From positions 1 to 37,842 of the forward strand of contig JACPQF010000096.1 in assembly GCA_016190625.1 (NCBI GenBank): DNA of 37,842 bases, read 5' to 3'. The stretch is from Chloroflexota bacterium. GTDB lineage: Bacteria; Chloroflexota; Dehalococcoidia; JACPQF01. Positions 30,594 through 35,809 of the stretch are shown here, piece after piece (positions within the stretch are counted from its first letter, which is position 1; each line of letters opens with the position of its first letter). Made by a program: the position numbers and the translations under genes. The notes below the pieces were generated by a model that searched no databases, was not told the DNA's origin, and saw only the letters and a program-made list of their open reading frames with translations.

Positions 30594-31676
30594 CAGATCG
30601 GCGTTTACGGGCTGGTCACCGAACTTGCCGTCTGGGGCGTTACTGCCTTTCTGGTTGGCGAGTACGACGACCAGGAAATAAAACATCTCCCCGAGTTCTT
30701 CTCTGCCGATGGCATCATAAGCCTCTCGGTCGCCTCCGAAGGCTTCCGCGCCGTTCGCCAGTTGGAGGTGCTCAAGCTGAGAGGGTCACGCTACGTCTCT
30801 GGCATCCACTTCTTCGATATCACGCCGGCGGGCATCGTCGTCTATCCGCGGATCACCGTTCCCCCCGAACATGAGGTCAAACAGGCGCGGACCGGGGCGC
30901 CGCGATCGTGCATGGGTGTGTCCGGCCTTGACGAGATGCTGGGTGGCGGGCTTCCTCCTCGCAGCACCACTTTGCTCCAGGGCGCGAGCGGCACCGGCAA
31001 GACGCTTCTAGCCCTGAGCTTTCTGGTCCAAGGGGCGCGGAAGGGCGAGCCCGGCCTGTTTTTGACCTTGGAAGAAGCGCGCGAGCAGCTTATCGAGGTG
31101 GGGGCCAGTCGAGGCTGGCCCCTCGATCAGCTCGACCAGCAGGGGCTTCTCCGGATCGTTTACTTCTCGCCAGTAGAGCTGGCTGCCGATGCCCTGCTTC
31201 AGAAAGCGAAGGACTTCATAGATGAAGTGGGGGTCAGGCGTGCTGCTATCGACTCACTCTCGTCCCTCGATCTAAGCCTGGGTTCGCATGGCCGTTTGCG
31301 GGAGTTGGCTTACGCCCTCGTCAAGACATTCAGAATGAAGGGCGTCACCACCATCCTGACCCATGAGGTATTGGAGCTGGTGGGCACAGGCCAGCTCTCG
31401 GGCTTTGGCTTCAGCTCCATCGTGGACAACATCATCCTGTTGCGGTACGTAGAGGTGGAAGCCCGCCTGACGCGCGCAGTCTCGGTGCTGAAGATGCGAG
31501 GGTCGGGCCACGATCACGTCTTGCGAGAAATGCAGATCACCGCCGACAGCATACGGGTCAAGGAAGCCTTCCAGCAGTTCCGAGGAGTGCTCACCGGCGT
31601 GCCCACACCTGCAGAGAGCGACGTCGGACCCCGACGACGTGGTCCTTCCTCGAGAAGGACTACTGATGGGGGCTGA
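30594..31676 (+). CDS. KaiC-like ATPase 1, C-terminal part (continues 30163-30593)
   Basis: About 360 residues in the shifted frame. It completes domain 1 ([20 protein letters not shown], then [20 protein letters not shown]) and carries domain 2: [17 protein letters not shown], Walker [15 protein letters not shown], the glutamate pair in [28 protein letters not shown] (Walker B), then [17 protein letters not shown]. Where Synechococcus KaiC has the phosphorylated Ser431-Thr432, this protein has Ser-Ser ([15 protein letters not shown]), so autophosphorylation is conceivable. If read independently, a start at TTG 30762 is available, but the conserved sequence upstream argues for one gene. The last 17 bases overlap the end of the convergent histidine kinase gene. 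Confidence 0.82.
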
Positions 31677-32855
31677 GCGCCTGCTCAAGCGTAAAGTAAA
31701 ACGTGCTGCCCTTGCCGCGCCCAGAGGGCACCCGGCTCTCGACCCAGATTCGCCCACCGTGCGCTTCCACCAGCATTTTGGCGATGTATAGACCCAAACC
31801 GAGGCCGTGTCGCCCTTCCGAACGCCCTTGGCTCTGTAGAAGCGCTCGAAGATGTGGGTGAGGTCACCCGCAGCTATGCCGGTTCCCTGGTCGGATACCG
31901 ATATCCTTACTTCCTCATTTGTCTTCTCTGCCTCAACCAGGACCTCAGTCTCTGGCGGAGAGTACTTCAAGGCGTTGGTGAGCAGGTTCATGAAAATGCG
32001 CTCGAGGGCGTCCGGGTCGGCGCTGACCGGAGGCAGGTCTGGCGCGATGTCCAGTTTGACCCGCCCGATATCCATCGCAGCCCTGGCTCGCTCCAGCAGG
32101 TCGGACACGAACGCTCTCAGGTCCACAGGATTTCTCTCCAGCCTCAACTGCCCGGCCTCAAGGCGCGCCGACTCCACCATGTCCTGAATCATCGCGCCCA
32201 TTCGCTTGGCGCCGGTGAGGATGGCCGCCGAGCTCTTGCGCAAGATGTCGGGCTTGTCCAAGGATCGCTGAATCATTTGCGCCTGCCCCTGAATTATCGT
32301 TAGCGGGGCGCGTAGGTCGTGAGAGACCATGCTTACGAAATTCTCCCTCGCCTGCTCCAACTCCCGCAGCTCGGTCACGTCACGGAAGGCGTTCATCGAT
32401 AGCAGTATCTTGCCTCGGTCGTCTCGCACCGCGTTCCCGCTGAACGCAAGACGGCGCCGGGATCCATCGGGTCGCACGAGGATGACCTCCTGGTCAGTGA
32501 ACCGCTCGCCACGCTGAGCCCGGTTGGTCGGATACTCCCCAGGGGCCAACGGCTGTCCTTCCGCGGAAGGATCAGGCTGCCGCAGGTCGAGCTGGCAGAA
32601 GTCCGCCACCGTCCACCCGTCCTCCTTCTCGGGCAATCGTAGGATCTCCCGGGCCACCGGATTCATCAGAGTTATGCGGCCGGTGGCGTCTACCACCACC
32701 ACACCCTCTGTCAGGCTCTCCAGAAGAGCGACCATCTCCGTCGCCCGACGCTCAGCTTCCTCGGCTAATTCCTGCTGTCGGACACCGGCAAGTACCAGCC
32801 GCTGGTTGATCTCCCTTAGTTCGTCGAGCAGGCGTTCGCGCTCTCTTCCAGCCAT
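31660..32855 (-). CDS. Cytosolic PAS-domain histidine kinase, frameshift at about 31807
   Basis: The order is an N-terminal coiled coil (1-40), a PAS domain (about 40-165, [20 protein letters not shown] and [12 protein letters not shown]), the HisKA phosphoacceptor box [19 protein letters not shown], then the ATPase with N box [11 protein letters not shown]1 [11 protein letters not shown] and F box [10 protein letters not shown]. There is no membrane segment. At GDTAS the frame breaks: the G2 box [19 protein letters not shown] is in the next frame from 31806 and runs to the stop TAG at 31660-31662. One missing G (the sequence reads ACGGCCTC) explains it, giving a protein of about 398 residues. 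Without the fix the frame continues to 31272 as nonsense. The gene converges on kaiC-like gene 1 with overlapping ends. Confidence 0.82.
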
Positions 32856-32877: not shown

Positions 32878-32898
32878 GGGGCGACTGCCAGTCGCCCC
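32878..32898. repeat. REP palindrome, downstream of RAYT
   Basis: A perfect 21-base palindrome: arm GGGGCGACTG (32878-32887), a central C, and CAGTCGCCCC (32889-32898), followed by TACGG. Related copies are at 33262-33280 and 33618-33634. Confidence 0.85.
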
Positions 32899-32925
32899 TA
32901 CGGTTTGTAGCGCGATCAATACGTG

Positions 32926-33576
32926 TCACGCGTCTCGGTTATTCTCGTCCAGATGCCACTGCATAGGATTGTTCACGATGTATTGGCGAATGCTATCCAA
33001 ATCCCCTTGGTCACGAATGACGTGTTCGAAGTGATTGCGTTGCCAAACAACTAGCCCCGAAATAGCAGATAGCTCCCTCATCCGTCGGCTGACCGCGGAC
33101 TTGAAGCCGACGACGAATGATCCCAGAGATTTGCGCGCTACTCCTCGGGGAGGCGGCGCTGGAAATGGGACCGGTCCGTCAACTTGTAGGGCCCCGTCAA
33201 CTTGTAGGGCCCTGTCTATTTGTAGGGCCCCGTCTATTTGTAGGGCCCCGTCTATTTGTAGGGGCGACTGGCAGTCGCCCTTCCCCGAGGTCCCGCTATT
33301 CTGCGGCTCCCCAATGATCACAATGCCATGTACGTGATTGGGCATGACCACGAATTGATCCAGGGGGATCTCGCGGCGAATCCCCGCCGACCTTGTCCAT
33401 TCGTCGCGAACAATATCGCCGTAGGCACTGGTTTTCATCTGACCGTTTTCGATGTGGCCGAACAGGGATTGCCGTTCGTGGGTGCAGATGGTGATGAAAT
33501 ACGCCCCGGCCTGTGAGTAATCGTATCCCCGCAGGCGCGTGGAATGGCGCTGATGTTGCTCTGGATGATAGGTCAT
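32926..33576 (-). CDS. REP-associated tyrosine transposase (RAYT, IS200-like)
   Basis: A 216-residue single-domain HUH nuclease of the Y1/RAYT group, which is linked with spread of REP palindromes. Catalytic features are MPNHVHGIVI (His81, His83), WQRNHFEHVIR (from 178) and Tyr199 in RQYIVNNPMQWH. The N-terminal signature DYSQAGAYFITICTHERQ is typical. The start is taken as ATG at 33576, with a weak GGAAG site; TTG at 33585 is an alternative. Between the HUH motif and the Tyr helix lies an insertion (about residues 100-135) encoded by a REP palindrome and five 18-bp repeats, giving repeated QIDGAL/QVDGAL. The frame stays open, so the protein may still fold, with the insert as a loop. Confidence 0.9.
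   Translation of the reverse strand: MTYHPEQHQRHSTRLRGYDYSQAGAYFITICTHERQSLFGHIENGQMKTSAYGDIVRDEWTRSAGIRREIPLDQFVVMPNHVHGIVIIGEPQNSGTSGKGDCQSPLQIDGALQIDGALQIDRALQVDGALQVDGPVPFPAPPPRGVARKSLGSFVVGFKSAVSRRMRELSAISGLVVWQRNHFEHVIRDQGDLDSIRQYIVNNPMQWHLDENNRDA
33176..33265. repeat. Five tandem 18-bp repeats inside the RAYT gene
   Basis: Units at 33176, 33194, 33212, 33230 and 33248. The consensus on the plus strand is CCGTCTATTTGTAGGGCC, with CAACTT in place of CTATTT in the first two units. Because 18 is a multiple of 3, the reading frame is kept and each unit adds six residues. The last unit ends in GTAGGGGC and runs directly into the REP palindrome at 33262-33280. Confidence 0.95.
33262..33280. 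repeat. REP palindrome inside the RAYT coding sequence
   Basis: Arms GGGCGACTG and CAGTCGCCC with one central G. It is the same element as at 32878-32898, but here it is translated in the RAYT frame as part of KGDCQSP. Confidence 0.85.
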
Positions 33577-33617
33577 TTCTTCCAACCCATGATGTGCTTC
33601 AAGATCTCAAGGGCTTG

Positions 33618-33634
33618 GGCGACTGCCAGTCGCC
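33618..33634. repeat. REP palindrome, upstream of RAYT
   Basis: Arms GGCGACTG and CAGTCGCC around a central C, followed by TCTACTC. It lies 42 bases upstream of the RAYT start and 12 bases from the kaiC-like gene 2 stop codon (33646-33648). Confidence 0.8.
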
Positions 33635-33645
33635 TCTACTCATCC

Positions 33646-34533
33646 CTACTGCCCCAACGCCCTCACTGCGGATCGATAGATGGTCTTGCCTGCCTCCCCC
33701 TTCTTGATGGCGTAGTTGAGCGCCACTAGCCGGTCGAGAGAGCGCGTCAGGTCCTGGCGCCGCAGGCCCGTCGCCGCCGCCACCGCCTCGACCGTCCCCT
33801 CCTTCAGACCCGCTAGCGCCTGTAGCACGACGATCTCCTGGTCGGTCAGGCCAGGGTAGGCCGGCAGTCTCGCCGCACGCGGCTCGGGCACGCCGGTGAT
33901 GATGCCCCGGTACTCCTTGAGGGCCTCGCCCACCACCATCCCCCGCGGGGTTATCTCGTAGGCTCGCATGTCCTTGCTATGGCCGCTGCTGCGCATCTTC
34001 ACCACCGTGATCATCCGCCTGAGCTGCCCCTCGATCTCGACGTAGCGCATCAGAACGATGTCGTCGGCGAGGAAAGAGATGACGTGAGGGCTGAACCGCA
34101 ACTCAGAGTAAGACTCGGTCACTTCCACCGTCATAAGCACCGTGATGCCCGTGCCGGTCAGCGCTCCTACCATCCTGTACATCGACTCCCGGAAATCCTC
34201 GCGGAAGGTGGGAGCCAGGGCCAGCTCGAAGCCTGACAGGGAATCGATGACCAGCCGTTTCGCTCCTATCTGCGCCACCACATCGCCGATCTCCTTGAGT
34301 GCTTCGTCCACGGAGAGGTCCAACGGGCGCAAATAGATCACCCTCAGCTTTCCCTCGCCGACCATCTTCGCCAGGTCGAAGCCAAGCGCTTTGGCCCGTC
34401 TCAAGTACTCCGGGGGATGCTCCTCGAAGATGGCGATGACGCCGGGTTCGCCCCGCCGCACTCCCTCGACGATGAACTGCGTGCCCAACACGGTCTTCCC
34501 CGCGCCGGAAGGGCCGGCCACGAGGACCGCATC
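33646..34533 (-). CDS. KaiC-like ATPase 2, C-terminal part with winged-helix tail (continues 34534-35339)
   Basis: About 295 residues in the frame after a one-base deletion. It holds domain 2 with Walker A VAGPSGAGKTVLG, the glutamate pair in VIAIFEEHPPEYL, Walker B RLVIDSLSGFEL and KMRSSGHSKDMRAYEIT. The position equivalent to KaiC Ser431-Thr432 is Ser-Phe (VISFLADDIVLMRY). After about residue 220 a C-terminal extension, LTDQEIVVLQALAGLKEGTV followed by LRRQDLTRSLDRLVALNYA, reads as a winged-helix domain; it is absent from KaiC and from the other two homologues here. This suggests a link to DNA binding or a protein contact. Upstream sequence is in the other frame. Confidence 0.82.
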   Translation of the reverse strand, partial: DAVLVAGPSGAGKTVLGTQFIVEGVRRGEPGVIAIFEEHPPEYLRRAKALGFDLAKMVGEGKLRVIYLRPLDLSVDEALKEIGDVVAQIGAKRLVIDSLSGFELALAPTFREDFRESMYRMVGALTGTGITVLMTVEVTESYSELRFSPHVISFLADDIVLMRYVEIEGQLRRMITVVKMRSSGHSKDMRAYEITPRGMVVGEALKEYRGIITGVPEPRAARLPAYPGLTDQEIVVLQALAGLKEGTVEAVAAATGLRRQDLTRSLDRLVALNYAIKKGEAGKTIYRSAVRALGQ

Positions 34534-35339
34534 CCGGCCGGAACACCGCCGCCCGTCATCTCGTCCAGACCGGCCACCCCCGTGGAGACCAGTGCTTTTG
34601 TCAGAGCGACCTCCCGTTCCTCCCTTCGCTTGAGCATACGGGGGAAGACCTGGAGACCATCCTCGGTGATCCGGAAGGTATGCAGGCCCGGCAGCGACGC
34701 CTGCCCCCGCATCTTCATCACCTGCAGCTTGCGCACGATGGAGTTGCGCTCCAAACTCTGATACAGCCAGATGATCCCGTCGGCCACCGTGAAAACCGGG
34801 TTGTCGCGGATCTCGCTTTCCACATATTCGCCCACCAGAAATGTGGTCGCCTGCCAGCTCGTAAGATAGAGCGCCAGGCGTTGCAGGAAGTGCTGCAGAC
34901 CCATCTCCCCGGTCTCGATAGACGCCGCCGTCCGCACCACCGTGCGAAAGGAGTCCACCACCACGAGCCCCGGGGCGTATTGCTCGAGCTCTCGCACGAT
35001 TCTCTCCAAGACCTTGCTCAGGTCCTTTTCCATGACCTCCTGGCTCAGGTTGATGAAGCGGATGACCGAGTCTAGTTTACTGGAGTCAAAGAAGGACATC
35101 TGCTGCTGGTAGCGCAGCATCTTGAGCGGCGGCTCGCCCAGCACCGTGAAGTAGAGCGCCGGTCGGTCGGGAGTGGCGTTGGCGAACAGGATTTGGTGGG
35201 CCAGGGTAGTTTTGCCCGTCCCCGGCGCGCCGGCGATCAGGTTGAACGAGTACTCGGGCAGTCCATCCCCGAGCACCGGGTCGAGGCCCGGCACACCCGT
35301 GGGCAGCTTCCTAATGCTTACTCTTCGTGATTCCGTCAA
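34534..35339 (-). CDS. KaiC-like ATPase 2, N-terminal part (frameshift at about 34533)
   Basis: The first 268 residues of a tandem KaiC-like ATPase. It has KLPTGVPGLDPVLGDGLPEY, Walker A IAGAPGTGKTTLA, ALYFTVLGEPPLKMLRYQ, Walker B PGLVVVDSFRTVV and domain 2 up to GLDEMTGGGVPAG. There the expected DAVLVAGPSGAGKT moves to the next frame; one extra G in GCCGGGATG restores it, for a total of about 564 residues. The start is TTG at 35339, with GGAGGT 6 bases upstream. The TTG overlaps the stop codon of the helical protein gene (TTGA), indicating translational coupling. Unshifted, the frame runs to 34401. Confidence 0.82.
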
Positions 35340-35809
35340 TCCTTCACCTCCGTTGAGGCCGGACCCGTTCCGCCAACCTGAACATCCGGCCATATCTGAG
35401 CCATCTGGCGCTGGGCGATATCCTGGCCGACGAAGGTGCCCAGCAAAAAGATAAAGTTGGCGAGCAGTGCAGTCAGGCTGCGGCTTACCCCTGCCGGGTC
35501 TCGCCCTTTCACGCTCTCGTGCAGGCCCTTCAGACAGGCGCCGTCCTTGTGGGAAGGAATCGCCACCTCGACGCCGTCCAGGGCGCCCTTCTCCAGAGAA
35601 GGATCGACCTTGGCCAGGTGCAAGGCGCGGGCCATGAGAGCATTCACGCCAGCGGGGCCGATCAGGTCGGCCACCTGCTGGTGTATCTTCTGGCAAGCTC
35701 TCTCCGCCGCATCCGCCAGTACGCCAACGGAAGGACTCTCAACCCCTTTTGCCTCGTGCACAAGAAACCGTCGGGCCAGGTCGCGAAACTCGTCAGTGGG
35801 CTGTTGCAT
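35336..35809 (-). CDS. 157-residue helical protein between two kaiC-like genes, function unknown
   Basis: Not recognised. It is predicted mostly helical: an N-terminal amphipathic part (DEFRDLARRFLVHEAKG), a central part (VLADAAERACQKIHQQVADL, then GPAGVNALMARALHLAK) and a hydrophobic stretch at about 111-129 (LTALLANFIFLLGTFVG) that may be a buried or membrane helix. Two cysteines (39, 92) are present. The ATG at 35809 shares its A with the stop of kaiC-like gene 3 (TGATG), and the stop overlaps the TTG start of kaiC-like gene 2 (TTGA). Such tight coupling suggests a protein made in step with the ATPases, perhaps a binding partner. The frame is open further upstream to 36469, but that part is antisense-frame shadow of kaiC-like gene 3. 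Confidence 0.82.
   Translation of the reverse strand: MQQPTDEFRDLARRFLVHEAKGVESPSVGVLADAAERACQKIHQQVADLIGPAGVNALMARALHLAKVDPSLEKGALDGVEVAIPSHKDGACLKGLHESVKGRDPAGVSRSLTALLANFIFLLGTFVGQDIAQRQMAQIWPDVQVGGTGPASTEVKD

Follow-up and report, generated by a model that had tools for sequence, protein, structure and literature searches.

An in-frame REP and a half-REP tandem array in a RAYT gene of a Chloroflexota bacterium, with a probably old REP site of renewed sequence

Introduction

Subclass 2.4 of the TnpAREP proteins (Quentin et al. 2018, PMC6006769), equivalent to RAYT group 4 (Bertels et al. 2017), is described as having a highly variable insertion domain with short repeats between strand beta3 and helix alphaC, and REPs that lie in frame between the HuH motif and the catalytic Tyr are a feature unique to it (PMC6006769). 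Intragenic REPs in general have been treated by Di Nocera 2013 (PMC3733652). These, together with the Rickettsia palindromic elements (RPE), are likewise in-frame palindromes in protein genes, thought to be tolerated in loops, but they are found in many unrelated genes, whereas the REP considered here lies in the gene of its cognate transposase and at one recurrent site. Two further systems are useful for comparison. The E. coli TnpAREP (subclass 2.2, PDB 4er8) shares its fold and motifs with the RAYT (REP-associated tyrosine transposase) described below; in its 165 residues, however, the HuH and Tyr halves stand close together in the profile alignment, without a linker like the one found here. 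The S. maltophilia TnpAREP (PMC8266576) has REPs laid out in the same way as the 23-nt REP of this locus, with an 8-bp perfect stem and a 3-nt loop.

The window analysed, a stretch of 37,842 nucleotides from a Chloroflexota bacterium (contig JACPQF010000096.1), holds a RAYT gene that compares with subclass 2.4 as follows. First of all, it has the HuH and Tyr motifs and, between beta3 and alphaC, a long variable insert with short repeats, and it carries an in-frame REP between HuH and Y. Second, long REPs of the GTAG type flank the gene. Third, there is no C-terminal extension, and genes of this kind are scattered over phyla. On the other hand, the spacing between HuH and Y is about 116 aa against a published subclass median of 88, the insert contains a 4.9-copy array of 18-bp half-REP units that departs from the subclass as described, and the available genome contains few copies of the REP family. 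The assignment to subclass 2.4 rests on the described features, namely the variable beta3-alphaC insert, the in-gene REP and the missing C-terminal extension. Since in-gene REPs of subclass 2.4 are already published (PMC6006769), the core of the finding is known; what is particular to this gene copy is solely the 18-bp tandem array.

The gene and its predicted fold

The gene lies on the minus strand and encodes 216 aa from its ATG; an alternative TTG start at 33585 would give 32926-33585 and 219 aa. The features of the coding sequence are:

32926..33576, minus strand: RAYT / TnpAREP coding sequence (open reading frame; NCBIfam NF047646; profile match to PDB 4er8)
33328..33336, minus strand: HVH (HuH) motif, codons 81-83 (H81 and H83 invariant in 27 aligned homologues)
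32980..32982, minus strand: catalytic Tyr, codon 199 (Y199 invariant; W178, Q179, R188 and N203 conserved)
33127..33312, minus strand: linker from strand beta3 to helix alphaC, codons 89-150, largely disordered in the structure model (pLDDT)

As the preliminary description had it, both catalytic motifs are intact: HVH and Tyr199 align with those of the homologues, in a motif alignment of this gene with about 26-27 of them. The protein thus has what defines a RAYT, a HuH motif and a single catalytic Tyr (H81, H83, Y199) in a Y1 transposase fold, that of 4er8. This entry matches the protein by profile (E=4e-7) and, as the E. coli RAYT with a REP hairpin, is also the best solved structural match of the model, followed by the IS608 and ISDra2 transposases. 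The NCBIfam model NF047646 (REP_Tyr_transpos) matches in two stretches (E=3e-16), and its score of 59.5 bits stays under the curated cut-off of 80 bits, which is the NCBI threshold for naming and no biological feature of the family. The insert may well account for this shortfall; all 27 aligned homologues match NF047646 at E 0.001 or better. Pfam Y1_Tnp gives a weak match only, under its cut-off.

The model places a strand at residues 81-88, no regular structure at 89-150 and a helix at 151-170. Values of pLDDT fall below 50 at residues 101-127, 129-132 and 134-139, while most of the core is at 90 or above. The variable insert is thus seen between beta3 and alphaC, and its site, running from the HuH strand to alphaC, agrees with the published layout of subclass 2.4. 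The last helix spans residues 190-209 and the protein ends seven residues later, at 216, leaving no C-terminal extension.

A promoter scan found none, a single terminator-like site was at chance level, and a search for phage relatives gave no match. Neighbouring genes show frame breaks. A PAS-HisKA-HATPase histidine kinase (31272-32855, minus strand) is broken near 31800, with the C-terminal end of its HATPase_c domain (profile 75-109) in another frame at 31660-31797, and a double-domain KaiC-like ATPase (33646-35696, minus strand) is divided between two frames by a break near 34500, its second half beginning at profile position 25. These breaks suggest either indel errors of the assembly or decay around the RAYT. 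A further KaiC-domain protein (30762-31676, plus strand, E=5.6e-54) is encoded near the kinase, so that several KaiC-like ATPases are clustered here.

REPs in and around the gene

A scan for GTAG with a hairpin finds exactly three REPs in the gene and its surroundings:

33258..33280, plus strand: in-frame REP, GTAG foot with 8-bp perfect stem and 3-nt loop (GTAG and hairpin scan)
32879..32901, minus strand: downstream flanking REP, about 25 nt past the stop codon, oriented as the gene (palindrome match; GTAG and hairpin scan)
33617..33639, minus strand: upstream flanking REP with one mismatch, oriented as the gene (palindrome match; GTAG and hairpin scan)

The flanking pair of GT[AG]G hairpins that goes with a RAYT is thus present, as is the in-frame REP between HuH and Y that goes with subclass 2.4, and the two flanking REPs reported earlier are borne out. 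The inner REP is identical to the downstream copy at 23 of 23 positions and to the upstream copy at 22 of 23; it is inverted relative to both, and its coding strand translates as GDCQSPL(Q). Dinucleotide shuffles give an expectation of 0.01 palindromes per window; the six strand-wise matches observed are three places read on both strands. The genome-wide count of the palindrome proposed in the preliminary description has now been made on the available MAG (3.18 Mb, completeness 65%) and gives four good copies, among them one further exact REP on contig C69; all remaining matches are degenerate. A high-copy family would have more than 100 dispersed copies per genome; the family here is low-copy, with little sign of current spread.

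In-gene REPs and frame retention among homologues

Homologues were gathered from public genomes and from genomes of the same class. The nearest genomes compared share only the class with the source, and the nearest relatives, at about 55% core identity at most, are too distant to date the insertion or the birth of the array. With the linker bounded by profile-defined N and C domains for both hairpin and frame counts, 62 of 86 homologues have a GT[AG]G hairpin in this linker. An own REP in frame, taken at first to be unusual, is both a published hallmark of the subclass and the common state of the family. The density is 10.4 per kb in linkers, 1.39 per kb in flanks and 0.11 per kb in core coding sequence (4 in 36 kb), a contrast between linker and flank that is overstated per kb because the length of the linker is itself largely made up of REPs; shuffled linkers hold a hairpin in about 1 of 86 cases. 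Counted per gene, REPs are as frequent in the linker as in the first 100 bp upstream (53 in 82 genes), and the 100 bp on the downstream side have fewer (32). The preliminary description had reasoned that an insert common to all homologues would speak for an old protein feature. The identical insert is not present in all of them, but a REP of the gene's own type stands at the same site in most. In one case, L131 (G040:C349), two adjoining RAYT genes share the in-gene REP GTAGAGACGCCCGGGGCGGGCGTCT.

The reading frame is kept across these inserts. When N and C domains were paired with no open frame required, over linkers of 9-339 nt, they were in the same frame in 85 of 90 pairs, and 84 of 90 also had no stop in the linker. 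The chance expectation for a shared frame is about 1/3, which argues that insertions are filtered by selection on the protein. This bears on the reading of the gene as a decaying pseudogene whose frame runs open through insert and array by luck. The frame breaks in the neighbouring genes would fit such decay, as would the frameshifted paralogue on contig C111 of the same genome; against it stand the full conservation of the catalytic residues, the frame kept throughout the family and the array periods, seven of them, which are all multiples of three (see below), and we judge this reading to be very unlikely. The paralogue itself (L114) has its domains in different frames, a gap of 143 nt between them and remnants of GTAG/CTAC palindromes in its linker, and is likely a dead RAYT copy.

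Age of the REP site and probable renewal of its sequence

Two kinds of evidence bear on the history of the in-gene REP, namely its phase and its resemblance to the flanking copies. On a poorly resolved tree of the core domains (147 columns), the REP reading phase, F0 or F1, follows the tree, with 7 changes against a shuffled mean of 10.6 and only 1 of 300 shuffles as low. In L002, which belongs to the same genome, and in L047, L124 and L146 this site is occupied by a REP whose 3' arm shares the codon phase of this gene (TCG/GCG CCC C-A C in all five); L127, the fifth relative in this tree group, has no REP at the linker site. It is thus probable that a REP already occupied the site before this gene and its nearest relatives diverged. 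The REP sequence, on the other hand, resembles the gene's own flanks. The in-gene REP is nearer to the gene's own flanking REP than to the in-gene REP of the nearest relative in 28 genes, against 7 with the opposite result and 6 ties (sign test p=5e-4, in a count that takes the genes as unrelated); for this gene the values are 1.00 and 0.80. Exact matches of at least 16 bp between a linker and the gene's own 1.5-kb flanks occur in 26 of 70 genes, compared with 22 of 730 core windows of the same length and 13 of 1050 comparisons of linkers with foreign flanks. Since the phase follows the tree while the REP resembles its own flank, we conclude that the REP site is probably old in this group and that its sequence has been renewed.

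The main rival is repeated insertion. Here, a flanking REP would have entered this copy recently and independently, the site being hit time and again as the only tolerant place. The full identity of the inner REP to a flanking copy would be accounted for, and REP presence is distributed over the core tree without phylogenetic signal (20 changes, where shuffles average 20.1), so that repeated gain and loss also fits. Neither the nearest relatives with a REP at the same site and a 3' arm in the same phase nor the agreement of phase with tree would be expected from it, however, and the recent insertion envisaged in the preliminary description is doubtful; we regard this rival as unlikely, though it deserves more weight than the others discussed here.

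The 18-bp tandem array

The array overlaps the in-frame REP:

33176..33263, plus strand: tandem array of 4.9 x 18 bp (CCGTCTATTTGTAGGGCC), read as (LQIDGA)n (TRF)

With period 18, 4.9 copies and 94% matches it reaches a TRF score of 141; no other array in the window exceeds 41. An in-frame REP with five 18-bp units between the motifs had been described, and both are found, the units numbering 4.9. On the coding strand, the unit CCTACAAATAGACGGGGC begins inside the 3' arm of the REP, contains the CTAC foot and takes in about 11 nt of linker, in keeping with the earlier suggestion that the units derive from the in-gene REP; in make-up, the array is the REP's foot-side half repeated in tandem. 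The units had also been said to end in the REP head, which is true of the last one alone: it reads GTAGGGGC, whereas the others bear GTAGGGCC. Adjacent units are the most alike, as slippage would predict. The units contain the self-complementary GGGCCC, by which neighbouring units would be able to pair with each other. Searched elsewhere in the genome, the unit gave single scattered matches only, no more than the reversed-pattern control.

Arrays recur at this site. They are found in the linkers of 7 of 91 genes, with periods of 15, 15, 18, 18, 18, 24 and 42; the 38 kb of core sequence examined contain no array. Array units of L049, L117, L133, L142 and L051 are visibly derived from whole or half REPs, and the 42-bp pair in L119 contains the GTAGGGGCGGGT head of that gene's REP. 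L117, from a genome of the same class, has an independent 18-bp array of 4.4 copies (GGGGCGCGGAAACCGCGC) that ends in the REP foot. Unrelated assemblies (L049, L117) have comparable arrays in the same place, which speaks against the array being an artefact of assembly, as do its length of 88 bp, shorter than common reads, and the distinct substitutions by which its units differ. A MAG of 160 contigs with apparent frame breaks in adjacent genes does invite that suspicion, but we consider an artefact highly improbable.

Proposed mechanism

The reading that we favour, and hold to be quite probable, is that of a REPtron of the subclass 2.4 / RAYT group 4 type with an old REP site whose sequence is renewed and with an array that arose by duplication of half a REP. 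The encoded HuH-Tyr endonuclease would bind, cut and rejoin single-stranded REPs with a GTAG hairpin, its predicted cognate substrates being the two flanking REPs and the in-gene REP and its candidate substrate strand single-stranded GTAGGGGCGACTGGCAGTCGCCC. By analogy with the E. coli and S. maltophilia enzymes, the GTAG strand would be bound and cut at CT. The in-gene REP sits in the exposed, disordered beta3-alphaC loop, presumably the sole place tolerant of foreign residues, and selection on the transposase preserves the reading frame across the insert. We infer that the in-gene REP is re-matched to the flanking REPs by RAYT-mediated replacement or by gene conversion. Tandem copying of the foot-side half of the REP together with about 11 nt of linker (18 bp in total) would later have produced the roughly five units of this gene; replication slippage at the hairpin and aborted RAYT strand transfer are the most likely routes.

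A further reading makes the in-gene REP a functional cis-element, for example a binding site that lets the RAYT repress or attenuate its own gene or mRNA, or a means of keeping gene and substrate together on transfer. It is compatible with an old site, to which it would add a function. That in-gene REPs are about as regular as upstream ones and more so than downstream ones, that they match their own flanks and that the RNA of the insert folds better than its shuffled versions (z -3.3) would all be expected; yet roughly one gene in four lacks the REP, the losses being scattered, and any palindrome yields a hairpin as a by-product, so that the function is putative and the reading improbable as it stands. 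Combined with the old, renewed site that we favour, it leads to a bolder proposal: the in-gene REP may be a standing functional part of group 4 REPtrons, inherited in position and continually re-matched to the flanks by the enzyme. The substrate of the transposase would then be part of its coding sequence and might serve in self-regulation or self-targeting, and the half-REP arrays would be a by-product of this activity. We offer this as a speculative suggestion of low probability.

Conclusions

A remark made in the literature on subclass 2.4 is now quantified: the in-gene REP is about as regular as upstream REPs, the reading frame is kept across it, and its sequence tracks that of the flanking copies. 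If confirmed, each gene would record the REP specificity of its transposase inside its own reading frame, and the family would offer a natural assay for REP exchange.
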